Part shown: piece by piece, positions 2,534 through 17,043 of the stretch
Position numbering within the stretch: position 1 is the stretch's first letter
Layout of the letters: the number at the start of each line of letters is the position of its first letter
Assembly: GCA_020062545.1 (NCBI GenBank)
Contig: JAGUWD010000001.1
Location: forward strand, 62,001-126,000
Source: Thermodesulfovibrionales bacterium
Lineage (GTDB): Bacteria; Nitrospirota; Thermodesulfovibrionia; Thermodesulfovibrionales; Dissulfurispiraceae
Length of the DNA stretch: 64,000 nt
Direction of reading: 5' to 3'
Translations under genes and position numbers: made by a program
Notes under the pieces: generated by a model
What the model was told of the DNA's origin: nothing
Databases searched by the model: none
Seen by the model: the letters and a program-made list of their open reading frames with translations, nothing else

Positions 2534-2794
2534 ATGTTCAGGGCTATTGTATTTAGGTGTCCTCATTTAAAAGGAAGCAATGATGGTGCAAGGTGCGATG
2601 CAGCATTATGCATTGCTGAAAACAATCTCATAAAACATATGGAAGATGCCGATATAAAGCTGTGCATCAATAAAAAAAGACGCTTCGAGGCATGTTATAT
2701 CTATTTCGATGAATTAAGAAGAACAGCCATTAGCAGACTTCCCATAGAAACCCGATCACTTGACAGCCGTCCACACACCTTCAGCAGTCTATGA
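2534..2794 (+). CDS. Small Cys-containing hypothetical protein
   Basis: Tight spacing after the preceding gene; RBS AGGAGGG; MFRAIVFRCPHLKGSNDGARCDAALC... Confidence 0.55.
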   Translation: MFRAIVFRCPHLKGSNDGARCDAALCIAENNLIKHMEDADIKLCINKKRRFEACYIYFDELRRTAISRLPIETRSLDSRPHTFSSL

Positions 2795-2796
2795 GA

Positions 2797-2852
2797 TGTA
2801 ACAAAATTTTAACAATGCCTTAATAAATGTGTAACCATTGTCTTTATATAAT
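2797..2852 (+). promoter_or_regulatory. Pho-box-like promoter, four repeats plus consensus -10
   Basis: TGTAAC(2797) TTTAAC(2808) CTTAAT(2819) TGTAAC(2830), TATAAT(2847). Confidence 0.85.
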
Positions 2853-2857
2853 TAAGT

Positions 2858-3154
2858 ATGACTACATTGCAAATACCAACAGAAACCTCAGTAAGTTGCC
2901 CTATCTGTAATTCAGAAGCCATTTACAAATATGGGAGAACAAGGACCGGAAAGCAGAGATTCCAGTGCCTTATGTGCGGAAGGCAATTCAGTTATGGTGC
3001 AAAAAAACAAGAAATACAGGGCAAGCCAATCTGTCCTGTATGCGGCAATCCCATGCATCTCTATAAAATCGAGGGCGAGGTAATAAGGTTCAGGTGTTCG
3101 GATTACCCTGTGTGCAAGACATTTAGAAAATTCAGAATAAAGGAGGAGGATTAA
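2858..3154 (+). CDS. Two-zinc-ribbon protein; N-terminus resembles IS1-type InsA transposase zinc ribbon
   Basis: CPICNSEAIYKYGRTRTGKQRFQCLMCGRQFS ... CPVCGNPMHLYKIEGEVIRFRCSDYPVC. Confidence 0.75.
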   Translation: MTTLQIPTETSVSCPICNSEAIYKYGRTRTGKQRFQCLMCGRQFSYGAKKQEIQGKPICPVCGNPMHLYKIEGEVIRFRCSDYPVCKTFRKFRIKEED

Positions 3155-3156
3155 TT

Positions 3157-3528
3157 ATGAGCTATTACATGCACAATGTCCCGGGAAGGCTGAGGATTAA
3201 AAGCCCTGTTATCAAAAACAACAAGAATGTGGCAGACGAACTGAAAAAGACCCTCAGTATGCTTCATGGTATTGCTACTGTTGATATAAACCTCACAACC
3301 GGCAGTCTCCTCGTAAATTATAATTCCATGTCGGTAAAGCACACCGATATCGTGGACATCTTGCAGAGAAAGGGCTACTTCGATGCATCAAAGGCTGTGA
3401 ACAACGATGAATATTTACATAAAGCAGCATCAAAGGCAGGCGCTGTAATCGGGAAATCAATCTTCGGCGCATTTGCAGGAATGGCATTGGAAGGAACACC
3501 CCTGGCGTTTCTGGCCATCTTGATATAA
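3157..3528 (+). CDS. HMA-like domain protein lacking CXXC, with C-terminal hydrophobic segment
   Basis: VPGRLRIKSPVIK...LSMLHGIATVDINLTTGSLLVNY; C-terminal GKSIFGAFAGMALEGTPLAFLAILI. Confidence 0.75.
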   Translation: MSYYMHNVPGRLRIKSPVIKNNKNVADELKKTLSMLHGIATVDINLTTGSLLVNYNSMSVKHTDIVDILQRKGYFDASKAVNNDEYLHKAASKAGAVIGKSIFGAFAGMALEGTPLAFLAILI

Positions 3529-4504: not shown

Positions 4505-4820
4505 TGAGTATCCTCCTGTTTTTCCTCACATTCAGCAAATACTCGGCCCTTCTGCTTACAAGAATGGGCAGAAAGTCTTTAACCTTAGCCCCTTTCTTAA
4601 ACCGCCTCAATACTATCTCATAGACTCTTTCCACATCCTCAACAGAGTCCCCGATGCGCTGGGCAAGCATCTCAACTGCATTCAGATGCAGTTTTCTCTC
4701 GGTCTCGTCATCGTATAAACAGAAAACAGACGACAGACTTTTAGAAGACAGATTTTTTTTATCTGTTTTCTGTTCCCTGTCTTCTGTCTTCTGATCTCTG
4801 AAAGTCTCCGTCACAGCCAT
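4497..4820 (-). CDS. DUF3562-like protein with a repeat-derived linker
   Basis: [49 protein letters not shown]; likely start MAVTET at 4820. Confidence 0.6.
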
Positions 4821-5800
4821 CTCAACCTCTTGAATACGATGTACATCAAAAACACAGGCAAAATCGAGACAATAACAATCACCCAGAATGTAGTATACGG
4901 ACCCATGAATGTCCATGGATTGCCCGTTCCTCCCGGAACATTTACATTCATGCCAAAGAATGTGCCTAAAATGGTAGCAGGAATGGAGAGTGTAAAAACA
5001 ATGGTCAAAAGGGCAAGTATTTTGTTTGTCCTGTCAGAACTGATGATAAAGTCCGTATCCTTGTAAATTTCTATTGTCTCCTTGCACTCCTCAAGGATTG
5101 CCCATGCCTTGTCAATATAGTCCGAAAGATCGCTGAAATAAACACCTATGTCGCCGTTCGAAAATTTATGAATCATCTTCTCAAGGTCGTGGACAACAAC
5201 CCTCAGAGATGAAACCACCCTTCTGATGTTTGCTATATTGTGCCTCAGTTCTGTAACTTCCCTGACAGCATCCGTCTTTTCATCAAAGACCTTATCCTCT
5301 ATTTCTTCAATCTCGGAGATTACCCTGCGGAGCATGAGCATGATGTTTTCAATGAGGGCATGGACTATCTCATAAAGCAAGAATGTGGGCGAACATCCCA
5401 TGTATTCATCATGGGCTTCTTCGTCTTTTTTGCAGTTCTGGAAAATCCTGTTTATCGGCTTCAACTCGCCTGAATGAACGGTAACCAAGAAATCCCTGCC
5501 TAAAAATATGCCCACCTGTGACGGTATGGAAAACTTTTTTTCCTTCAGGTATCGTGGGAAATGGAGGATTATAAATAGATAGTCTTTATATTCGTCTATC
5601 TTTGGAAGCTGGGTCTTTGATATGCAGTCCTCCACATCGAGGTGGTGAAAGTGATACATCTCCAAAAGGGAATTCAATATGGACGGCGTTGGGTTATCTA
5701 TGTTTATCCATACAAAGTTTTTCCCTTTTATGCTCTTTAATTGCAGTTCCTGCACTCCTGCTGAACTAATACCTTCGCCTTCCCTATGGTAATCGGTCAT
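4811..5800 (-). CDS. corA: CorA-type magnesium/metal transporter
   Basis: 329 aa, C-terminal TM pair with GMN motif (GTFFGMNVNVPG). Confidence 0.92.
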   Translation of the reverse strand: MTDYHREGEGISSAGVQELQLKSIKGKNFVWINIDNPTPSILNSLLEMYHFHHLDVEDCISKTQLPKIDEYKDYLFIILHFPRYLKEKKFSIPSQVGIFLGRDFLVTVHSGELKPINRIFQNCKKDEEAHDEYMGCSPTFLLYEIVHALIENIMLMLRRVISEIEEIEDKVFDEKTDAVREVTELRHNIANIRRVVSSLRVVVHDLEKMIHKFSNGDIGVYFSDLSDYIDKAWAILEECKETIEIYKDTDFIISSDRTNKILALLTIVFTLSIPATILGTFFGMNVNVPGGTGNPWTFMGPYTTFWVIVIVSILPVFLMYIVFKRLRWL

Positions 5801-7009
5801 TTACATCGCCTCTTGCCTCAATATTTCAGCCTTATCCGTCAATTCCCATGGAAGACCTATATCCATTCTTCCTACATGTCCGTAGACTGCGAGCTTTCTG
5901 TAAAATCCGCCTTTAATAATAGATGGGAGGTATCTCAGGTTAAACTGTTTTATTATTCCTGCGAGTCTGAAGTCAAAATATTTCTCTAATCTTGCGGCAA
6001 TCTCCTCGTCAGGAATCCTGCCTGTGCCAAATGTCTCTACCTGGATGCTCACAGGCATTGAAAGACCTATGGAATAGCTGAGTTGAACCTCGCACTCATC
6101 GGCAAGTCCTGCTGCAACCACATTCTTTGCTGCATAGCGGGCTGCGTAGGCGCCTATCCTGTCAATCCTCAAAGGGTCTTTGCCGCTCAGCGCTGAACCG
6201 CTGTGCCTTGAATATTCTCCGTATGTGTCAACGGCATTTTTCCTGCCTGTAAGACCGGAGTGTACGGATGGGCCGCCCGTGATAACCAAACCTTCGGGAT
6301 TTATGAATATCCCTGTCCTGTTATCTGCTTTTATATCTTCATCATATAATACGGGACCGATCACATGCTCTACCATGTCATCCCGCAATCTCTTCAGATC
6401 AGGACCTCCAGATGCGGCCGGCATGGACTGACTTGCAATTATGGTTATGGAGTGAATGCGATATGGCCTGCCATTTTTATACTCCACCCCAACCTGTGTC
6501 TTTCCGTCGGGCTCAAGATAAGGGAGAACGTGCTGAAATCTGACGGATGTAAGACGTCTTGCCAGCTTGTGGGCAAGCCATACAGGCATAGGCATATACG
6601 AGGCAGTTTGATTGCACGCAAACCCGAAGACCGTTGCCTGATCATAGGCTGGTATCCTGTCTATCTCCTCTTCGGAGAGGGTTCTCTCATCGATAAAATA
6701 TTCTCTTTCCCGCCTCGATTCTTTAAGTCCTGTGAGAATACTACATGTCTTTGCGTTGAAGGTATTCCCTGTGTATCCAATCTGGCTGATCACCTGTCTG
6801 GCTATATTCGGAAAATCCACGGCAGCGCCAGATTCAAACCTCGCTGCTATAAATACAATGTTTGTAAAGACCGCACACTCTGCCCTTATCCTCGAATAAG
6901 GGTCCTGCTGGAGAAAGTGGTCAACAATTGCATCGCTTATCTGATCGCAGAGTTTGTCAGGATGCCCCTCTGTCACAGACTCGGATGTAAACATAAAGTC
7001 CTTCTTCAT
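5801..7009 (-). CDS. metK: S-adenosylmethionine synthetase
   Basis: FTSESVTEGHPDKLCDQISDAIVD; full-length 402 aa. Confidence 0.96.
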   Translation of the reverse strand: MKKDFMFTSESVTEGHPDKLCDQISDAIVDHFLQQDPYSRIRAECAVFTNIVFIAARFESGAAVDFPNIARQVISQIGYTGNTFNAKTCSILTGLKESRREREYFIDERTLSEEEIDRIPAYDQATVFGFACNQTASYMPMPVWLAHKLARRLTSVRFQHVLPYLEPDGKTQVGVEYKNGRPYRIHSITIIASQSMPAASGGPDLKRLRDDMVEHVIGPVLYDEDIKADNRTGIFINPEGLVITGGPSVHSGLTGRKNAVDTYGEYSRHSGSALSGKDPLRIDRIGAYAARYAAKNVVAAGLADECEVQLSYSIGLSMPVSIQVETFGTGRIPDEEIAARLEKYFDFRLAGIIKQFNLRYLPSIIKGGFYRKLAVYGHVGRMDIGLPWELTDKAEILRQEAM

Positions 7010-7017
7010 TTTTCACC

Positions 7018-10000
7018 TCATTTTTTCGTACTTTCATTCACCAATAACGGCACTGCCGCACTTCCTCCGATAACAATGCCATCAATAAGGCTGATTGGAG
7101 CAATCCCCAAAAGACTTCTCAAACCCGGAACCACCATAGACAAGACCTGTAAAGCAAAAGAGCCTCCAAGGGCAAGATTTAAATATTTGTTAGGTGGTAA
7201 TTTTCCCCTATCAAAGATAGAATGTTTTTCTGAACGGCAGCTTATGGCATGGAGAAGCTGCCCCATTGTCAGACTTAAAAACGCCATTGTGCCTGCCCTC
7301 TGTCCCATACCATATCTCATGATTCCATAGCCATAGGCTCCTAATGCACCGGCAGACAGCATTGTAGACTCAAAGGTTATTCTCTTAAAATCCGAGGGCC
7401 TTATAATTGGATCATCGGGGTTCCTCGGAGGACGGCTCAATACATCGGGCTCAGGCGGTTCGAGGGCAAGGGCAAGGCCAGGCGCTATATCAGACATGAG
7501 ATTAATCCAAAGCAGTTGCATTGCACTGAGCGGCTGGCCAAGACCACCTGCAATGGCTGTAAACATAACCATAATCTCGCTCAGATTCGTAGATAAAAGA
7601 AAGTGCACAGACTTCCTGATATTGTTATAAATAGTCCTGCCCTGGCTTATGGCGATAATCATGGTCTCCATGTTGTCGTCTTCAAGCACCACATCTGCAA
7701 CCTCACGGGCAACATCTGTTCCTGTGTGCCCCATTGCAATACCAATATCAGCAGCCTTAAGTGCTGGCCCGTCATTGATGCCATCGCCTGTCATAGCAAC
7801 AACCCTTCCTGCACTTTGCAGTGCCTGAACTATCTGGAGCTTGTGGGCAGGGCTTACTCTCGAAAATACATGTACCCTCTTGCACATAGCCTTCATTACA
7901 TCACGGTCTATATTCGTCAGATGTGTTGAGTCGAGTATCTCAAGTTGTTCTCCCCTGCTCAGATCCAGTTCTTTGCCGATTGCATATGCGGTAGGGCTCT
8001 GATCTCCTGTTATCATAACAGTGTCTATATCTGCTCCATGAAATCTACCTATTAATTCCTTCACACCATCCCTTACCGGATCTGCCATACCAACAAGACC
8101 AAGCCAGATGAGTTCAGAGTTAAGAGTTGAGAACTCAGAGTTAATTTCAGAGTTTAGAGTTTGGAGTTTAGAGGACTCTATTCCCTCGTCTATAAATACA
8201 TAAGCAACACCAAGCACTCTTAGTGCATTGCCTGCCATTCTCTCATTTTCCACATCTATCCTCAGCCTGTCTTCTTCTGAGAGAGGAAGCTTTTTCCCAT
8301 CTCTCATATAAAAAGTACACATGGACAGGACTTCTGTGGGGCTTCCCTTTACAGCAATGACCTTCCCATGATGGTTTTCACTGCCGTGAACTTTAATATT
8401 ATGGATAGTGACCATATAATTGCGGTTTTCTGAACGGTGCTGGATTTTTAAAAGAGGGAATTTTTCTCTGAGCATGAATATGTCAATGCCCGAGCTTATC
8501 GCTGCATGAATGAGGGCATTCTCTGTTGGAGATCCGTTGACAATATATTCGCCTTCACTTTTGATAGCTTCGCTCTCATTGCAAAGGACACATACATGGA
8601 TAAGCCTGAGAAGTTCGTCACAGTAGTAAGGACTTACACAATTCCCTGCATATCTCTGATTGCTCTGTATAGTCTGATTATCTACTTCTGATACAAAAAA
8701 TTTACCGTCATGCAGATTTAAGCGTCTCATGCCTGTGTGAACCTCTATCACAGACATCCTGTTCATCGTGATGGTCCCTGTCTTGTCGAGGCATATGGTC
8801 TGAACAGAGCCGAGTGTCTCCACAGCATCGAGATGTCTTATGAGGACATTATGACGGCGCATCTTTCTTATGCCAAGAGCAAGGGTTGTGGTAGCGATTG
8901 TTGGAAGACCTTCAGGAACAGCAGCAACAGCAAGGGATATGGATGTCTTGAGCATCTGCAGGAATCCGTATCCCCGAATAAGTCCTATTATGAATACAAC
9001 TCCGCATACAGCGCCGCTTATCAATACAAGCTGGCTTCCCATGGTGTTTAACTGCCGCTCCATGGGAGTTTCCGGAGGCTTTGCCTCTCCAACAAGTGTC
9101 TGGATCTTCCCTATTTCGGTGAACCTCCCTGTTGCAACAACTACTGCAATGCCCTGTCCACCTGTAACGAGTGTTCCCATGTAAACCATATTTACCCTGT
9201 CAGCAAGGGGGATGTCATCACCAACTCTTAACTCTAAACTCTGAACTGTTTTAAGCACAGGCATACTTTCACCTGTAAGTGCAGACTCGTCGACGCTGAG
9301 GTGGTGTGCCTCTATAAGCCTTGCATCCGCAGCCACATAGCTGCCCGGTCTAAGAACCAAAATATCGCCCGGAACAATATCCTCTGCACCGATTTCTTTC
9401 AGGCTTCCTTCTCTCATTACAAGGGCAGATGGTCTTACGAGGCTCTTCAACGAATGAATGGTTTTCTCTGCCTGACTCTCTGTGGCATAGCCGATGGTTG
9501 CATTGATAGTCACAACGCCCATGATAACAAGAGCATCCGCAATGCCTCCGGTAAGGACTGAAATGCCTGCTGCAACACCTAAAAGGGCAACGGGAAGAGA
9601 CTTAAACTGGTCAACAAAGATGCTTAATCCAGAGCGGGGAACTGATTCGGGCAGTATATTCGGTCCATATTTCTTAAGTTTCTCTTTTGCGGTCTCACAT
9701 AACAATCCTGAATCTTTTGAAGTTTCCAATAAATCGGTGGCATCTGACGCCTTCATAAGATGCCATGGCTCAAGTATCTGATCTTCGGCGTGTATAACAG
9801 CCCTTCTTACTTTCCTTCTGCTATTTATTCTTTTGTTTCTATGGTGCCGTCGTTCTACAACCGATGAGATGCCCGCACTTCTAACAGAAGACCGTTGACT
9901 GCTGACTTCTTTATGGTGTTCCAGTACAATCCCCTCGATAACCGAGGCTACGGCGTGAACATCATTGCCTGAATTGAAAAATACGAGGACATTTCCGGTA

Positions 10001-10143
10001 AGTGCATTTACCGAAAAATGGCTTATCCCTTCCCTTCCCGAAAGCTTTGATTCGAGATGTTTTTTAAGAGACTCCGAGCGATGGAGTCCCTTAACTTTAT
10101 AGCGGGCCCTTCCTTTTACAGAGGCGTGTATTGCCTGAACCAC
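7018..10143 (-). CDS. P-type cation ATPase (P2-like core) with N-terminal HMA-like domain lacking CXXC
   Basis: DKTGTIT, TGES, MTGDGINDGPAL, TM4 PEGLP; N-terminus ASVKGRARYKVKGL...GISHFSVNALTGNVLVFF. Confidence 0.93.
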   Translation of the reverse strand: MVQAIHASVKGRARYKVKGLHRSESLKKHLESKLSGREGISHFSVNALTGNVLVFFNSGNDVHAVASVIEGIVLEHHKEVSSQRSSVRSAGISSVVERRHHRNKRINSRRKVRRAVIHAEDQILEPWHLMKASDATDLLETSKDSGLLCETAKEKLKKYGPNILPESVPRSGLSIFVDQFKSLPVALLGVAAGISVLTGGIADALVIMGVVTINATIGYATESQAEKTIHSLKSLVRPSALVMREGSLKEIGAEDIVPGDILVLRPGSYVAADARLIEAHHLSVDESALTGESMPVLKTVQSLELRVGDDIPLADRVNMVYMGTLVTGGQGIAVVVATGRFTEIGKIQTLVGEAKPPETPMERQLNTMGSQLVLISGAVCGVVFIIGLIRGYGFLQMLKTSISLAVAAVPEGLPTIATTTLALGIRKMRRHNVLIRHLDAVETLGSVQTICLDKTGTITMNRMSVIEVHTGMRRLNLHDGKFFVSEVDNQTIQSNQRYAGNCVSPYYCDELLRLIHVCVLCNESEAIKSEGEYIVNGSPTENALIHAAISSGIDIFMLREKFPLLKIQHRSENRNYMVTIHNIKVHGSENHHGKVIAVKGSPTEVLSMCTFYMRDGKKLPLSEEDRLRIDVENERMAGNALRVLGVAYVFIDEGIESSKLQTLNSEINSEFSTLNSELIWLGLVGMADPVRDGVKELIGRFHGADIDTVMITGDQSPTAYAIGKELDLSRGEQLEILDSTHLTNIDRDVMKAMCKRVHVFSRVSPAHKLQIVQALQSAGRVVAMTGDGINDGPALKAADIGIAMGHTGTDVAREVADVVLEDDNMETMIIAISQGRTIYNNIRKSVHFLLSTNLSEIMVMFTAIAGGLGQPLSAMQLLWINLMSDIAPGLALALEPPEPDVLSRPPRNPDDPIIRPSDFKRITFESTMLSAGALGAYGYGIMRYGMGQRAGTMAFLSLTMGQLLHAISCRSEKHSIFDRGKLPPNKYLNLALGGSFALQVLSMVVPGLRSLLGIAPISLIDGIVIGGSAAVPLLVNESTKK

Positions 10144-10149
10144 ACCCTG

Positions 10150-10842
10150 CTACTCTCCCCTTCTTCCTCTGCCCTTTGTTGTGATTTCAGAAGACTCAGG
10201 TGGCGTCATTGCCGGTGAAGATGGCGCTACTTCGGGCGATATTTTTGGCTTCGGCAGGGCAGCGCCTGCAATCTCCTTTACGCCTTCAACAACTCCTACG
10301 AGCATGTCTTTAACAGCCTTTACAGCAGTATTTCCTATTGTTCCTGCTGTCTCTATTGCACCACCTACAGCAACCTTAGCCACTTCCTCCACATTGCCTC
10401 CTATCTCCTTTGTGGCTTCTATAACTCCATCCACAGCCCTTCTGGCAACGAGGGCAACATCTGCACCTATTTCTGCAGCACCTTTAACAGCGCCCCTTAC
10501 AGTCTGACCTGATGCGGAAACAACATCGCCTCCCACATCTGCCACGCCCATTACAATGCCCTTTGCCACACTCTTTGTGCTGAGGATAAGCCCTGTGCCT
10601 ACCTCTTCTGTAGCCTGAATCGCTCCTTTCATTACGTCTTTAATAATGCCGACGCTCTCATTGGCCACAGAGCCTGTTGCCCTGAGCGTGTTCGATACCG
10701 TATTTTTTGCAAGGCTTACAATCTCTGCCTCGATTTCATTAATACCCTTGAGGCTGCTTACCACACCCTCTTTGACTGCTGTTCCTGTCCTGCCCATGGT
10801 CTCGCCTGCAACTGTGCTGCCTGCTACTGTTTCGTTTGACAT
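10150..10842 (-). CDS. 22-residue-repeat, probably amphipathic-helical protein
   Basis: Five consecutive 22-aa units, e.g. KGIVMGVADVGGDVVSASGQTV / RGAVKGAAEIGADVALVARRAV / DGVIEATKEIGGNVEEVAKVAV. Confidence 0.75.
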   Translation of the reverse strand: MSNETVAGSTVAGETMGRTGTAVKEGVVSSLKGINEIEAEIVSLAKNTVSNTLRATGSVANESVGIIKDVMKGAIQATEEVGTGLILSTKSVAKGIVMGVADVGGDVVSASGQTVRGAVKGAAEIGADVALVARRAVDGVIEATKEIGGNVEEVAKVAVGGAIETAGTIGNTAVKAVKDMLVGVVEGVKEIAGAALPKPKISPEVAPSSPAMTPPESSEITTKGRGRRGE

Positions 10843-10954: not shown

Positions 10955-11437
10955 TTATTCCCCTCCCTTATTCCCTGATTTTAAAAATATGTTCAATGCA
11001 TACCAGAAGGCGGTATACCATGCCGGCGCCGCAAGATTGCCTCTGCTAATCTGGTAAATACCAAGACCCAAAAGGGTCAGAAAGGCTGCACCGGCAATAT
11101 CCATATCGCCTCCAGTAATGCCTTTTATCTTTCCGTTTATATCTTGAAAAGTCTTCGACACCGTGGAGTGCATATCCGTTGGATCGGGTCTGTTGTTTTT
11201 AAGATTGAAGATGTTCCTGCCCCGTGCATATTCCGCGATTTTTCCTATATCAGATGCATGAACGATGAGAATGCTTCCAGACACAGGATTAACCTCCACT
11301 GTTTCGATGCCGCTGCATTTAGTCATCTGTTCTTTTAAGGACTTAAAATAATGAAAGTCCCCTTTTTTTGAAGGTATCTTCAGCCTTGCCCTGCCGGAAA
11401 TCATGTGGCTCAAAAAGGCATCCGGAAGGTCAAGCAC
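10955..11437 (-). CDS. HMA-like domain protein lacking CXXC, with C-terminal TM (start uncertain: GTG 11437 or ATG 11404)
   Basis: MISGRARLKIPSKKGDFHYFKSLKEQMTKCSGIETVEVNPVSGSILIVH; TM AAFLTLLGLGIYQISRG. Confidence 0.7.
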   Translation of the reverse strand: MLDLPDAFLSHMISGRARLKIPSKKGDFHYFKSLKEQMTKCSGIETVEVNPVSGSILIVHASDIGKIAEYARGRNIFNLKNNRPDPTDMHSTVSKTFQDINGKIKGITGGDMDIAGAAFLTLLGLGIYQISRGNLAAPAWYTAFWYALNIFLKSGNKGGE

Positions 11438-11738
11438 CGGCTTCGCCTCCCGGAGTTCCTGAAAAGGTTCCTGCAGATGATGCCTCTTTCTGCGCCTCTG
11501 CCATCTCTGCCTTTGCCTCGGCCACAATATCCTCAACAACCTCTCCCACCTCTGCTACTGTCTCTTTGCCCTTTTCATACAGTATCATTCCGCCTTTTAT
11601 GGCTGCCTTTGCTAAAGGCTTCACAACACTTGCCACAACAGGCATTACTGCAGGTGCAAGGACTGCCGCACCAATGCCTATGGCAAGGCCACTTAAAATA
11701 TTTCCCTTCAATCCATTGTCAAAAAGTGCCATTACCAA
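11430..11738 (-). CDS. DUF5132-like small membrane protein
   Basis: MALFDNGLKGNILSGLAIGIGAAVLAPAVMPVVASVVKPLAKAAIKGGMILYEKGKETVAE. Confidence 0.7.
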   Translation of the reverse strand: MVMALFDNGLKGNILSGLAIGIGAAVLAPAVMPVVASVVKPLAKAAIKGGMILYEKGKETVAEVGEVVEDIVAEAKAEMAEAQKEASSAGTFSGTPGGEAGA

Positions 11739-12003: not shown

Positions 12004-12273
12004 ATGATTACCTATAAAATCATTCACCATATTCCGGGCCGCATCAGGATAGAAGTTCCTGCTATCAAACATCTCTCCATGTCTGGACTATTACAGATGT
12101 CAAAACAACTCTCTACTATTGCCATCCCTGAAGGAATAAAAGACATCCGTCCCAATCCGCTATCAGGAAGCGTAGTGATAACATACAAGCCGGAAAAGAT
12201 AAACATTATTGAATACTTAAAAGACATTGTGTCCAGCGCAGAGATGCAAAAACTCATGGGAGGGCAAGATTAA
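12004..12273 (+). CDS. Stand-alone HMA-like domain protein lacking CXXC
   Basis: IIHHIPGRIRIEVPAIKHL...GIKDIRPNPLSGSVVITYKPE; RBS AGGAGAG. Confidence 0.75.
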   Translation: MITYKIIHHIPGRIRIEVPAIKHLSMSGLLQMSKQLSTIAIPEGIKDIRPNPLSGSVVITYKPEKINIIEYLKDIVSSAEMQKLMGGQD

Positions 12274-12667: not shown

Positions 12668-13678
12668 ATGAAGAAGATTTTAAGTTTGATATTGGTATTA
12701 GCTGTTGCACTGTCATTCTCCATTGCAAATGCCGAGGAGACATTGAACGGTGCAGGTGCAACATTCCCGTACCCTGTTTATTCTGCATGGGCATATGACT
12801 ATCATAAGACAACAGGTGTAAAACTTAACTACCAGTCAATAGGGTCTGGTGGAGGCATAAGACAGATTGTAAACAGGACAGTAGACTTTGGTGCATCGGA
12901 CAATGTCCTGACCCCACATGACCTTAACAAAGACAGTCTGCTTCAATTTCCGGCAGTAATGGGCGGGGTTGTCCCTGTGGTTAATATTCCTGGAATTAAA
13001 GAAGGCCAGCTTAAGCTCGATAGCGATGCGGTATGCAAGATATTCCTTGGCGAAATAAAGAAGTGGAACGACCCTAAGATAAAGGATATGAACCCGAATC
13101 TAAATCTCCCTGATAAAGAGATAACCGTTGTACACAGGTCAGACGGATCGGGAACAACAGCCATTTATACGCACTACCTGAGCGGCGCATGTAGTGCATG
13201 GAAAGATAAGGTCGGCTATGGAACATCTGTTAAGTGGCCGGTAGGCATAGGCGGCAAAGGGAATGAGGGTGTTGCCAACTATGTCAAGAGGACAGCAAAT
13301 TCCATCGGATATGTGGAATTTGCCTATGCAAAACAGAATAAACTTGCACACACACTCCTGAAGAATCCAGCTGGCAACTTTGTTGTGCCATCATTCGACA
13401 CCTTTGAGGATGCAGCAGATACGGCAGATTTCGATGCCAAAAACCATTTTGCCACATGGCTTACCAATGCACCGGGCAAGAACTCATGGCCCATAGCAGG
13501 CGCTACCTTTATACTCCTCGCAAAGGAGAAAAAGGACTCCAATATGAAGACCGTAAAATTCTTTGACTGGGCATTTAAAAATGGTGATGCAAAGGCAAAG
13601 GAACTCATTTATATACCTCTGCCGAAGTCTTTAAAGGATAAAATCAGGGCATACTGGAAGGCAAACGGAATATATTAG
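12668..13678 (+). CDS. pstS: Phosphate ABC transporter substrate-binding protein PstS
   Basis: ETLNGAGATFPYPVYSAW; HRSDGSGTTAIYTHYLS. Confidence 0.96.
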   Translation: MKKILSLILVLAVALSFSIANAEETLNGAGATFPYPVYSAWAYDYHKTTGVKLNYQSIGSGGGIRQIVNRTVDFGASDNVLTPHDLNKDSLLQFPAVMGGVVPVVNIPGIKEGQLKLDSDAVCKIFLGEIKKWNDPKIKDMNPNLNLPDKEITVVHRSDGSGTTAIYTHYLSGACSAWKDKVGYGTSVKWPVGIGGKGNEGVANYVKRTANSIGYVEFAYAKQNKLAHTLLKNPAGNFVVPSFDTFEDAADTADFDAKNHFATWLTNAPGKNSWPIAGATFILLAKEKKDSNMKTVKFFDWAFKNGDAKAKELIYIPLPKSLKDKIRAYWKANGIY

Positions 13679-13684
13679 AAATAG

Positions 13685-13785
13685 TTCGATTGTCGATAGA
13701 GCGACAGTGCGGCAACTGTGCATTTGCCGTAAAAACTGTCGCTCTGTCGTTCTGTAGCACTGTAGCGCTATGTCAATTGAAATAG
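13685..13785. repeat. Inverted and 8-nt-period tandem repeat between pstS and pstC
   Basis: AGAGCGACAGT / ACTGTCGCTCT arms, then CTGTCGCT CTGTCGTT CTGTAGCA CTGTAGCG. Confidence 0.8.
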
Positions 13786-13839
13786 ACAACTCTGATGTGT
13801 ATTATATATTGACCACTAACTGCAAGGAGTATTATTGTT

Positions 13840-14781
13840 GTGATTTTTTCGAAAAAGAAAAACCCCATTGATTTGATTTTTTCATTTATTACAGGTGTCG
13901 CATCGATATCTGTCATTTTAATCACTGCAGGCATTTTATATGTGCTTTTTACCGAATCTTCACTATCAATAGAAAAATTTGGCTTTTTTAAATTCCTTAC
14001 ATTGGTGGACTGGGATCCTGTAAAAGAATCCTTTGGGGCCGCTGCAGCCCTTTACGGAACACTTATAACCACTGGTTTAGCCCTTATTATTGCCATACCC
14101 ATTGCCGTCGGAGTCGCTATATTTATTACAGAAGTCTCTCCCAATTTCCTGAAAGGTCCTGTGGGGATTGCCATAGAACTTCTGGCAGCCATACCAAGCA
14201 TCATTTACGGCATGTGGGGGCTCTTTACCCTTGCCCCGATTATGGCCAAATATATCGAACCCTTTTTGCAAAAGACCATCGGGGAATTGCCCTTAGTCGG
14301 CATACTGTTTGAAGGCACCCCATTAGGTATAGACCTTCTGACGGCAAGCATGATACTCGGAATAATGATAATTCCCTTTACGGCAAGCATTTCGAGGGAT
14401 GCCTTTAATCTCACGCCAGCAGTTGTGAAGGAATCCGCCTATGCAGTGGGTGCAACAAAGTGGGAGGTAGTAAAAGATATAGTGCTGCCATATTCCAAGC
14501 TGGGTGTCTTTGGAGGGATCGCCATCTCTCTCGGAAGGGCATTGGGTGAGACAATGGCAGTGGCCTTTGTCCTCGGAAACAACAACCAGATAACCACATC
14601 CCTCCTCGATGCAGCAGCCACTGTTACTGTAAAACTCGCAAACGAGTTTACGGAAGCGGATAAAGACATTTATCTTTCCTCATTATACTATCTGGCGCTC
14701 CTGCTCTTTATTATGAGCTTTATTGTTCTGGCTATCGCAAAGTTCCTTATATTAAAGGCAGAAAGGAGATACCAGAGGTGA
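13840..14781 (+). CDS. pstC: Phosphate ABC transporter permease PstC
   Basis: Position after pstS; multi-TM permease with SRDAFNLTPAVVKESAYAVGATKWEVVKDIVLP. Confidence 0.95.
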   Translation: MIFSKKKNPIDLIFSFITGVASISVILITAGILYVLFTESSLSIEKFGFFKFLTLVDWDPVKESFGAAAALYGTLITTGLALIIAIPIAVGVAIFITEVSPNFLKGPVGIAIELLAAIPSIIYGMWGLFTLAPIMAKYIEPFLQKTIGELPLVGILFEGTPLGIDLLTASMILGIMIIPFTASISRDAFNLTPAVVKESAYAVGATKWEVVKDIVLPYSKLGVFGGIAISLGRALGETMAVAFVLGNNNQITTSLLDAAATVTVKLANEFTEADKDIYLSSLYYLALLLFIMSFIVLAIAKFLILKAERRYQR

Positions 14782-15620
14782 GGCGCGAAAGATTGAGGGT
14801 TATACAGAGCCGTATCGCCTTTGTTCTAAGCACCCTTACCGCCCTGTTTGGTATTTTCTGGCTCGTGTTCATTATCGGAGATGTCCTTATTCACGGCATA
14901 GGAGCGCTGAATATAAATTTATTCATAAAAGACCCGGCCCCGGCAGGTGTAGAGGGAGGCGGCTTGAGGAACGCATTTGTAGGGCATCTGCTGATAACCC
15001 TGTTTGCAACATTGATAGGTGTACCTGTAGGAGTGCTCGGCGGAACATTCCTTGCGGAATACGCCAGGGGAAAAAGGATTGCACAGATTATAAGTATCCT
15101 TTCGGACATAATGGTCAGTGTTCCTGCCATTGTGGTCGGTACATTCGTATATGCCATCATCGTAAAACCTCTCGGTCATTTCAGCGGCTGGGCAGGGGCT
15201 GTTGCACTCGCAATGATAATGATTCCAGTTGTCCTGAGGACAACGGAAGATATGCTCTCACTCGTATCGTGGACAGTCAGGGAGGCCGCATTTGCCCTCG
15301 GCGCACCATATTATAAAGTAATTATACAGGTTGTTTACCGCGGCGCAGCTACTGGAATACTCACAGGAATACTGCTTTCCATCGCAAGGGTGACGGGTGA
15401 GGCAGCGCCCCTTTTATTTACAGCATTTAACAATTCATTCTTCTCTACTAACATGAATGAACCGATAGCTTCCCTTACGGTATCCATATTCCAGTATGCC
15501 ATGGGGCCCTATGAGAGCTGGCACACACAGGCATGGGCTGCGTCTCTGATGATTACGGTATTCATTCTCATTATTACAATACTTGGAAGGCTCATAATAA
15601 AATGGAGGTATAAGAAGTGA
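14778..15620 (+). CDS. pstA: Phosphate ABC transporter permease PstA
   Basis: 4-nt overlap with pst[28 protein letters not shown]. Confidence 0.95.
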
Positions 15621-16381
15621 CAGGACAGATAGAGATCGAGGCCAAAAATCTCAACTTTTATTATGCAGGCGACATCCATGCCCTGAAGCAGGTAAGCCTC
15701 TCTGCCTATAAAAATAATGTTACATCATTAATAGGACCTTCCGGCTGCGGAAAAACCACACTCCTCAGATGCTTTAACAGAATGCATGACCTGTATCCTA
15801 AGAACAGATATGAGGGTGAAATAATCTTTCAGGGCACGAATATCCTTTCCAATGACATCGACATCATCAACCTCAGGAGCCGTATTGGAATGGTCTTTCA
15901 AAAACCGACTCCATTCCCCATGACCATATTCGATAATATCGCATACGGCCTCAGATTGAAAGGAATAAAAAATCGGTCTGAACTTTCAGGGAAAGTGGAA
16001 AAGGCCATTAAAGACGCAGCGCTATGGGACGAAGTGAAGGATAAACTCAATGTCAGCGCTTACGAGCTTTCAGGCGGACAGCAGCAGCGGCTTGTTATCG
16101 CACGGGCATTGGCTGTGGAGCCTGAGGTTCTCCTCTTTGACGAGCCCACATCGGCCCTCGACCCCATATCCACAGCCAAGATAGAAGAACTTATTGTCCA
16201 GTTGAAAAGCAAGGTTACCATAATTATCGTTACCCACAACATGCAGCAGGCAGCAAGAATATCGGACTGGACGGGATTTATGATGCTGGGTGAATTGATC
16301 GAGTTTGACAAAACCGACAAGATTTTCACAGCCCCCTCTGAAAAGCTTACAGAGGACTATATCACAGGGAGGTTTGGATAA
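15617..16381 (+). CDS. pstB: Phosphate ABC transporter ATPase PstB
   Basis: [47 protein letters not shown]. Confidence 0.97.
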
Positions 16382-17043
16382 TGACCAGGTTTGACGAAGA
16401 GTTAATGCATCTCAAAGAGATGGTCCTTAGGATGGGTGCAATGGTGGAGAGTTCTATTAAAGATTCGGTAAAGTCCCTTGTAGAAAGGAATGACGACCTC
16501 GCAAAGGCCGTTATAGAAAGGGATCATCAGATAAACGCCCTCGATGTGCATATAGATGAGGAATGCATCAGGCTTATAGCATTGATGCAACCCATGGCAG
16601 GGGATCTAAGATTTCTAACAACGGCAATGAAGATAACTACAGACCTTGAAAGAATGGGAGATAATGCTGTTAATATAGCAGAGAGGGCACTTGAACTCAA
16701 CAGGGAACCTATACTTAAACCTTACATTGACATCCCCCATATGAGCCAGATAGCACAGGGAATGACGAGGGACGCCCTTGACGCATTCGTGCGCAGGGAC
16801 AAGAAGCTTGCAATGGATGTGATAATGAGGGATGACGAAGTAGATGACCTGAAATACGGGATACTTGAAGAACTGATCTCCTTTATGATAAGGGATCCCA
16901 ATACCGTATACAGGGCAATGAAGATAAGTTTTATTGCACAGTACCTCGAAAGGATCGCTGACCATGCCACAAATATTGCCGAGATGGTTGTATACCTTGT
17001 GGCCGGAAAGATTATAAGACACATGACATTGCCAACAGAATAG
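16381..17043 (+). CDS. phoU: Phosphate transport regulator PhoU
   Basis: [23 protein letters not shown]...DLERMGDNAVNIAERA. Confidence 0.95.
   Translation: MTRFDEELMHLKEMVLRMGAMVESSIKDSVKSLVERNDDLAKAVIERDHQINALDVHIDEECIRLIALMQPMAGDLRFLTTAMKITTDLERMGDNAVNIAERALELNREPILKPYIDIPHMSQIAQGMTRDALDAFVRRDKKLAMDVIMRDDEVDDLKYGILEELISFMIRDPNTVYRAMKISFIAQYLERIADHATNIAEMVVYLVAGKIIRHMTLPTE

Follow-up and report, generated by a model that had tools for sequence, protein, structure and literature searches.

Several described systems provide points of comparison for a bacterial operon in which a helical-repeat protein is encoded beside a cation pump. In Mycobacterium, small PacL proteins are co-encoded with P-type ATPases, which they cluster and stabilise (PMC9374683, PMC13043812). 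In PacL, which partners P1B ATPases, Glu/Ala repeats are found together with a transmembrane segment and a metal-binding motif. In the ferrosome (fez), too, small membrane partners accompany a P-type ATPase, and cations may be stored; the FezC component is DUF4405-like (PMC11334425). At the level of protein architecture, alpha-synuclein and the apolipoproteins share a 22-residue (2 x 11) period, and the designed helical repeat DHR4 (PDB 5cwb) is a regular alpha-solenoid of short helices. The locus described here lies in a 64,000-nucleotide stretch of a Thermodesulfovibrionales genome (the window), and its central gene encodes a 22-residue helical-repeat protein, hereafter REP (10150..10842, minus strand). 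The REP family is strongly associated with divalent-cation transport, and we tentatively favour, with slightly less than even confidence, a cytosolic role for REP in which it serves as scaffold or adaptor to complexes that transport divalent cations.

The REP gene is a 230-codon open reading frame with an ATG start and a strong AGGAGG ribosome-binding site, and 72 homologous loci were recovered. A sequence-only reading of this DNA had quoted five consecutive 22-residue units, all of which are present, exact and contiguous at residues 72-181 (10300..10629, minus strand); each consists of one helix and one G-x-[D/N/T] turn, and a partial sixth unit, VGVVEGVKEIAGAALPKP, follows. The 22-residue period is borne out by BLOSUM autocorrelation over residues 61-196, which has its maxima at lag 22 (z=8.3) and lag 44 (z=7.1); neither score was matched in 2000 shuffles, none of which attained that maximum at any lag, and the signal at lag 11 is weaker (z=3.9). 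Ahead of the repeats, a long N-terminal helix defined by alignment and AF2 (residues 11-56; 10675..10812, minus strand) contains the near-invariant core LKGINEIEAEI, which has the lowest entropy in the whole protein. The C-terminus comprises a Pro/Ser-rich disordered linker and a basic tail (10153..10242, minus strand; pLDDT below 60) that ends TTKGRGRRGE in the window copy, and a net charge of at least +2 over the last 14 residues is found in 49 of 71 homologues. Searches against Pfam and NCBIfam profiles placed REP in no curated family above cut-off. REP is an uncatalogued but real repeat-based bacterial protein family.

Structure prediction assigns a compact fold to these repeats. A first AF2 run with 24 sequences gave a mean pLDDT of 67 (79-88 in the repeats), and a second run with 77 sequences reached 79.7 overall and 91-95 over most repeats, with a pTM of 0.69 and similar confidence across all five models; the model describes a lipid-free monomer only. 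The repeats are predicted as discrete helices, one to a unit and about 15-19 residues long, at residues 63-81, 88-102, 107-125, 129-147, 151-169 and 171-187, and the breaks between them coincide with the motif [E/D]-[V/I]-G-x-[D/N/T]. The turns G104/G105/D106, G126/D128 and G148/N150 are near-invariant, as is G82, where the first turn reads G82-T-G84 instead; among the 77 sequences, the turn glycines are conserved at 86-100% and D106, D128 and N150 at 96-100%. Helix-turn-helix connections classically place a glycine where one helix ends and an N-cap residue after it; the sequence therefore provides backing for the AF2 model that is independent of it. The top Foldseek match in the PDB, and the closest fold found, was DHR4 (E 6.5e-4, TM 0.56/0.64), an artificial design whereas REP is natural; a PDB search by sequence found no solved natural homologue. 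A compact alpha-solenoid of short helices behind a conserved N-terminal helix is thus well supported by prediction. REP would represent a repeat family outside Pfam and NCBIfam. Its predicted solenoid, with a single helix in each 22-residue repeat, is unusually regular, and the structures nearest to it are artificial designs.

The same repeats had been taken to form apolipoprotein-, perilipin- or synuclein-like amphipathic helices coating a lipid or granule surface. Their helical and overall amphipathic nature stood, with a hydrophobic moment of 0.38 at 98.2 degrees compared with 0.07 +/- 0.04 in shuffles, but the long lipid-coating helix did not, given the discrete helices and near-invariant turns. 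The moment itself fits a solenoid and a coat alike, because that angle brings every exact 22-residue repeat into phase. A coat, formed by a long 11/3-type helix or by hairpins that unfold on a membrane or on a polyphosphate or mineral granule, can draw on this phase, on the 22 = 2 x 11 period and, indirectly for a polyphosphate granule, on frequently adjacent pst genes, as well as on faint resemblances to alpha-synuclein (E 3), to apolipoprotein in one long relative (E 0.016) and to phasins (Phasin_2 profile matches at E <= 0.5 in 14 of 24 REP members, best E 0.039, none over the cut-off and none for the window REP). However, no phasin, synuclein or apolipoprotein match passes a curated cut-off, and the suggested kinship with the apolipoprotein, perilipin and synuclein families failed to emerge above noise (alpha-synuclein, E=3-4 in the PDB). 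Alpha-synuclein and the apolipoproteins do resemble REP in period and in their Gly/Val/Ala-rich composition, but their long helix is induced by lipid, whereas REP is predicted to be a folded solenoid with fixed turns. Against a coat also stand the confidence of the 77-sequence solenoid prediction, the N-capped helix-breaking turns, an identity of about 50-93% between phyla, far above that expected of a lipid coat, and the failure to recognise any PHA or polyphosphate genes within the operon. Given the 77-sequence model and the capping-turn statistics, neither a long amphipathic helix nor a lipid coat was retained as the preferred reading, and a coat of either form appears unlikely; a docking part for ion pumps is more likely than a fat-droplet or granule coat.

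The genomic setting of REP points to cation transport. The minus strand carries, in this order, a DUF5132 gene (11732..11430), which is the first gene of the operon, an HMA_2 gene (11437..10955), REP, a P2-type cation ATPase (10143..7018), the S-adenosylmethionine synthetase gene metK2 (7009..5801) and a CorA-family Mg2+ channel gene that abuts metK2 (5800..4811; the orthologue matches Pfam CorA at E 3.6e-57). The co-transcription with a cation ATPase suggested previously is strongly supported by gaps of 6 nt between the REP stop and the ATPase start and 8 nt between the ATPase and metK2, together with the conserved gene order; the HMA_2 start also overlaps the DUF5132 stop. Among the 72 REP loci, the DUF5132-HMA_2 pair lies immediately 5' of REP in 54 of the 63 with room, the ATPase followed by metK lies immediately 3' in 42 of 49, and the full order is kept in 33 of the 41 with room on both sides. 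The operon occurs in Nitrospirota, Desulfobacterota, Brocadia and others, and the pairwise distances among its five proteins correlate (r 0.71-0.87), as expected if the genes travel jointly.

Co-occurrence in related genomes follows the same pattern. The REP gene was present in 22 of 60 genomes searched, including its own, at 70-100% identity, the orthologues in related genomes being 70-94% identical. The same 23 of these 60 relatives encode both the ATPase, at 56% identity or more, and MetK2, at 63% or more, and the other 37 have neither; REP was present in 21 of the 23 plus one other genome (p=7e-13 for co-occurrence with either protein). Two loci (L159 and L160, in genomes G010 and G032) retain an intact DUF5132-HMA_2-ATPase-metK2 series from which the REP gene is missing, and could be either natural deletions or pre-insertion states; since the operon is intact there, REP would be an accessory that is not essential to the pump. 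A pstS-pstC-pstA-pstB-phoU phosphate uptake operon (12668..17043, plus strand), its open reading frames named by recognisable sequence, adjoins the operon in the window, and pst genes do so at about fifteen other loci, mostly in Nitrospirota and often in divergent orientation. A Pho-box promoter, also claimed for the operon, found no backing: a PhoB-box scan allowing up to 3 mismatches gave 10 matches in the window compared with 6.8 expected, and none in the intergenic region upstream of the operon.

The ATPase is an SPCA/PMR1/LMCA1-like pump with an N-terminal HMA_2 domain, as judged from the TIGR01522 profile, solved matches and motifs, and its sequence places it in the P2 class. The PMR1-type profile TIGR01522 scores 612 bits, which is under the strict cut-off of that model, and the nearest solved chains are human SPCA1 (best) and Listeria LMCA1. 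The DKTGT, PEGLP, TNxSE and LLWINLxSD motifs and the TM6 NxxxD cation-site residues are kept in 52 sequences; from the conservation of PEGLP, TNxSE and LLWINLxSD, the pump is predicted to be a Ca2+ or Mn2+ exporter. FezB of the ferrosome is a P1B-6 ATPase. Membership of the ferrosome group was rejected, as the ATPase here is P2 rather than P1B-6 and its operon partners are DUF5132, HMA_2 and MetK proteins, with no DUF4405 gene.

For three of the neighbouring families, DUF5132, PF19991 and DUF3562, literature searches returned nothing relevant. The membrane protein encoded directly upstream of REP (10955..11437, minus strand; PF19991, E 1.4e-19) has an HMA_2 domain that lacks CxxC, a motif found in only 1 of 62 homologues, and conserves a basic GRxR...K motif. 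Two further HMA_2 proteins without CxxC are encoded on the plus strand, namely a divergent 89-aa protein (12004..12273; PF19991, E 2.8e-8; CxxC in 0 of 27 homologues) and a 123-aa protein that recurs near the operon (3157..3528; CxxC in 0 of 36), and a conserved basic motif is common to all three free-standing families. Counting the ATPase N-terminus, four HMA_2 domains lie within 10 kb. HMA domains of this kind, devoid of CxxC and with conserved basic residues, may correspond to those termed CoBaHMA, which is a lead only. No calcyanin is encoded here, and the glycine pattern of REP is unlike the glycine-zipper domain of that protein. The DUF5132 protein (11430..11732, minus strand; PF17195, E 3.9e-18) shows, in a 61-sequence alignment, a hydrophobic Gly-rich N-terminus followed by a Glu/Ala-rich helix.

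The closest functional parallel is the PacL/DUF1490 effluxosome, in which a small accessory protein with helical repeats is encoded with a P-type ATPase and is proposed to cluster or stabilise it. REP differs from PacL in having no obvious transmembrane segment, no DUF1490 match, a P2 ATPase partner and a different fold, and the two are best regarded as analogous, not homologous. In architecture, DUF5132 is nearer to PacL than REP is, without detectable homology. A Pfam scan for DUF1490 gave no match in REP or in the 61 DUF5132 proteins, and homology between DUF5132 and PacL was rejected on this basis, the DUF5132 set showing weak YtxH matches in 20 of 61 members (best E 0.0015).

Copies of REP outside the operon extend the association with transport. 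Divalent-cation transporters from several unrelated families are encoded close to solitary copies and to longer relatives (about 318-366 aa): Mntp at L058 and L060, a CDF transporter at L161, Nramp, an MgtE-N/CBS protein and an RND transporter at L082, MgtE at L115, L116, L118 and L121, and CNNM at L115 and L116. The MgtE neighbour at L121 counts little, because the REP match in that genome (G401) is weak (E 5e-5). MgtE also lies upstream of two full operons (L064 and L090). Transporters of these families occur in 8 of 15 neighbourhoods of non-operon REP copies and in none of the control sequence (20 stretches of 16 kb from genome G169 plus 44 kb of the window), a comparison in which the families were picked after the neighbourhoods had been seen and several lineages are related rather than independent. 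MgtE is encoded 2-3 times per genome, yet in each of the three genomes checked one of these genes is no more than about 4 kb from the REP gene. No recognised cation transporter was found near the solitary copies L125, L126 and L128. A small DUF3562 protein is encoded just 3' of the solitary REP genes at L058, L060 and L126, and of metK2 in many operons.

In the favoured scaffold reading, REP would be a soluble solenoid, probably located in the cytosol, serving divalent-cation transporters at the inner membrane as a docking surface and gathering them into clusters. It would do so by binding the ATPase or an HMA_2 protein, and its disordered basic tail may contact the membrane. In this operon, the transporter would be the SPCA/PMR1-like P2 ATPase, the predicted Ca2+ or Mn2+ exporter, with the HMA_2 and DUF5132 proteins as probable membrane partners. 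The scaffold role is plausible and unproven. The family is tied to divalent-cation transport in several phyla, and the scaffold role, if true, would mean that dedicated pump-clustering scaffolds reach past actinobacterial PacL to P2 ATPases, and also to anammox bacteria and those of groundwater and the subsurface.

A rather low probability attaches to REP as a cation buffer or chaperone, whose acidic turn residues would bind Ca2+, Mn2+ or Mg2+ and pass the ion to transporters or sense it for them. The neighbours do move divalent cations, repeat position 8 is E/D in 81% of cells, and D/N/T are common at position 12, next to each turn; however, position 12 is accounted for by helix capping, the helices have near-zero net charge, and REP contains neither His/Cys clusters nor a known metal site.

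The second enzyme of the operon invites a further alternative to a pump scaffold. MetK2 (5801..7009, minus strand) is a divergent second S-adenosylmethionine synthetase, recognised as a paralogue because another metK lies on contig C3. A set of 50 operon copies keeps the ATP/Mg motifs EGHPDK, GLTGRK and SGKDP with little or no variation, whereas the E of GExTT has become R in 43 of the 50 and the D of GAGDQG has become N in 37, the window copy keeping D. We take these two residues to be methionine-contacting in E. coli MetK; a changed substrate or activity is possible on this sequence evidence, and the replacement of two acidic residues in a linked paralogue poses a directly testable enzyme question. 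That REP scaffolds or regulates this divergent MetK and not the pump is improbable: the two share an operon and a set of genomes, but non-operon REP copies lie beside transporters with no metK2 nearby, and two metK2 operons have no REP gene. An LEA-like protein for general stress or desiccation, acting without a specific partner, would fit helical repeats of low complexity, rich in Ala, Gly and Val, and weak matches that lack specificity, but is very hard to reconcile with the fixed operon place, the strongly constrained sequence and near-invariant motifs, GINEIEAEI among them.

A long shot for the operon as a whole is that it specifies a transport platform, or a compartment for cation/phosphate storage, of a kind that is so far undescribed and has spread horizontally. 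Its components would be a P2-type Ca2+/Mn2+ pump, CxxC-less HMA_2 proteins at the membrane surface, DUF5132 as a scaffold in the membrane, a lattice protein with a solenoid fold, and a MetK repurposed to make a product other than ordinary SAM.

The distribution of REP is broad and patchy. In a collection with one genome per species, the 72 loci span several phyla, with carriers in Nitrospirota, several Desulfobacterota lineages, Methylomirabilis, Brocadiaceae, Thermodesulfatator and some Proteobacteria, and within Nitrospirota the gene is found in 42 of 396 genomes. One carrier, Thermodesulfatator autotrophicus S606 (L087), is a cultured bacterium. In the REP tree, which has rough support values and may include some wrongly labelled MAGs, Brocadiaceae and some Desulfobacterota sequences fall inside mixed groups, which suggests horizontal transfer. 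A phage or plasmid origin was rejected: searches of phage and plasmid collections gave no REP matches in either, and weak PHROG tape-measure matches (E 9e-5) were taken as compositional. A weak match in G318 and a 44-aa relative in G015 (L024) were excluded as family evidence. The latter (G015:C62:2990-3124) corresponds to approximately two repeat units and lies a few kb downstream of a full-length REP gene. Among the longer relatives, those at L115-L119 belong to other Nitrospirota families, and several of them lie beside M14/AstE-like, RimK-like ATP-grasp, MgtE, CNNM and MscS genes. In the window, positions 2534..3154 encode a small Cys-containing protein and a zinc-ribbon protein, both of which recur beside the gene for the 123-aa HMA_2 protein in relatives.
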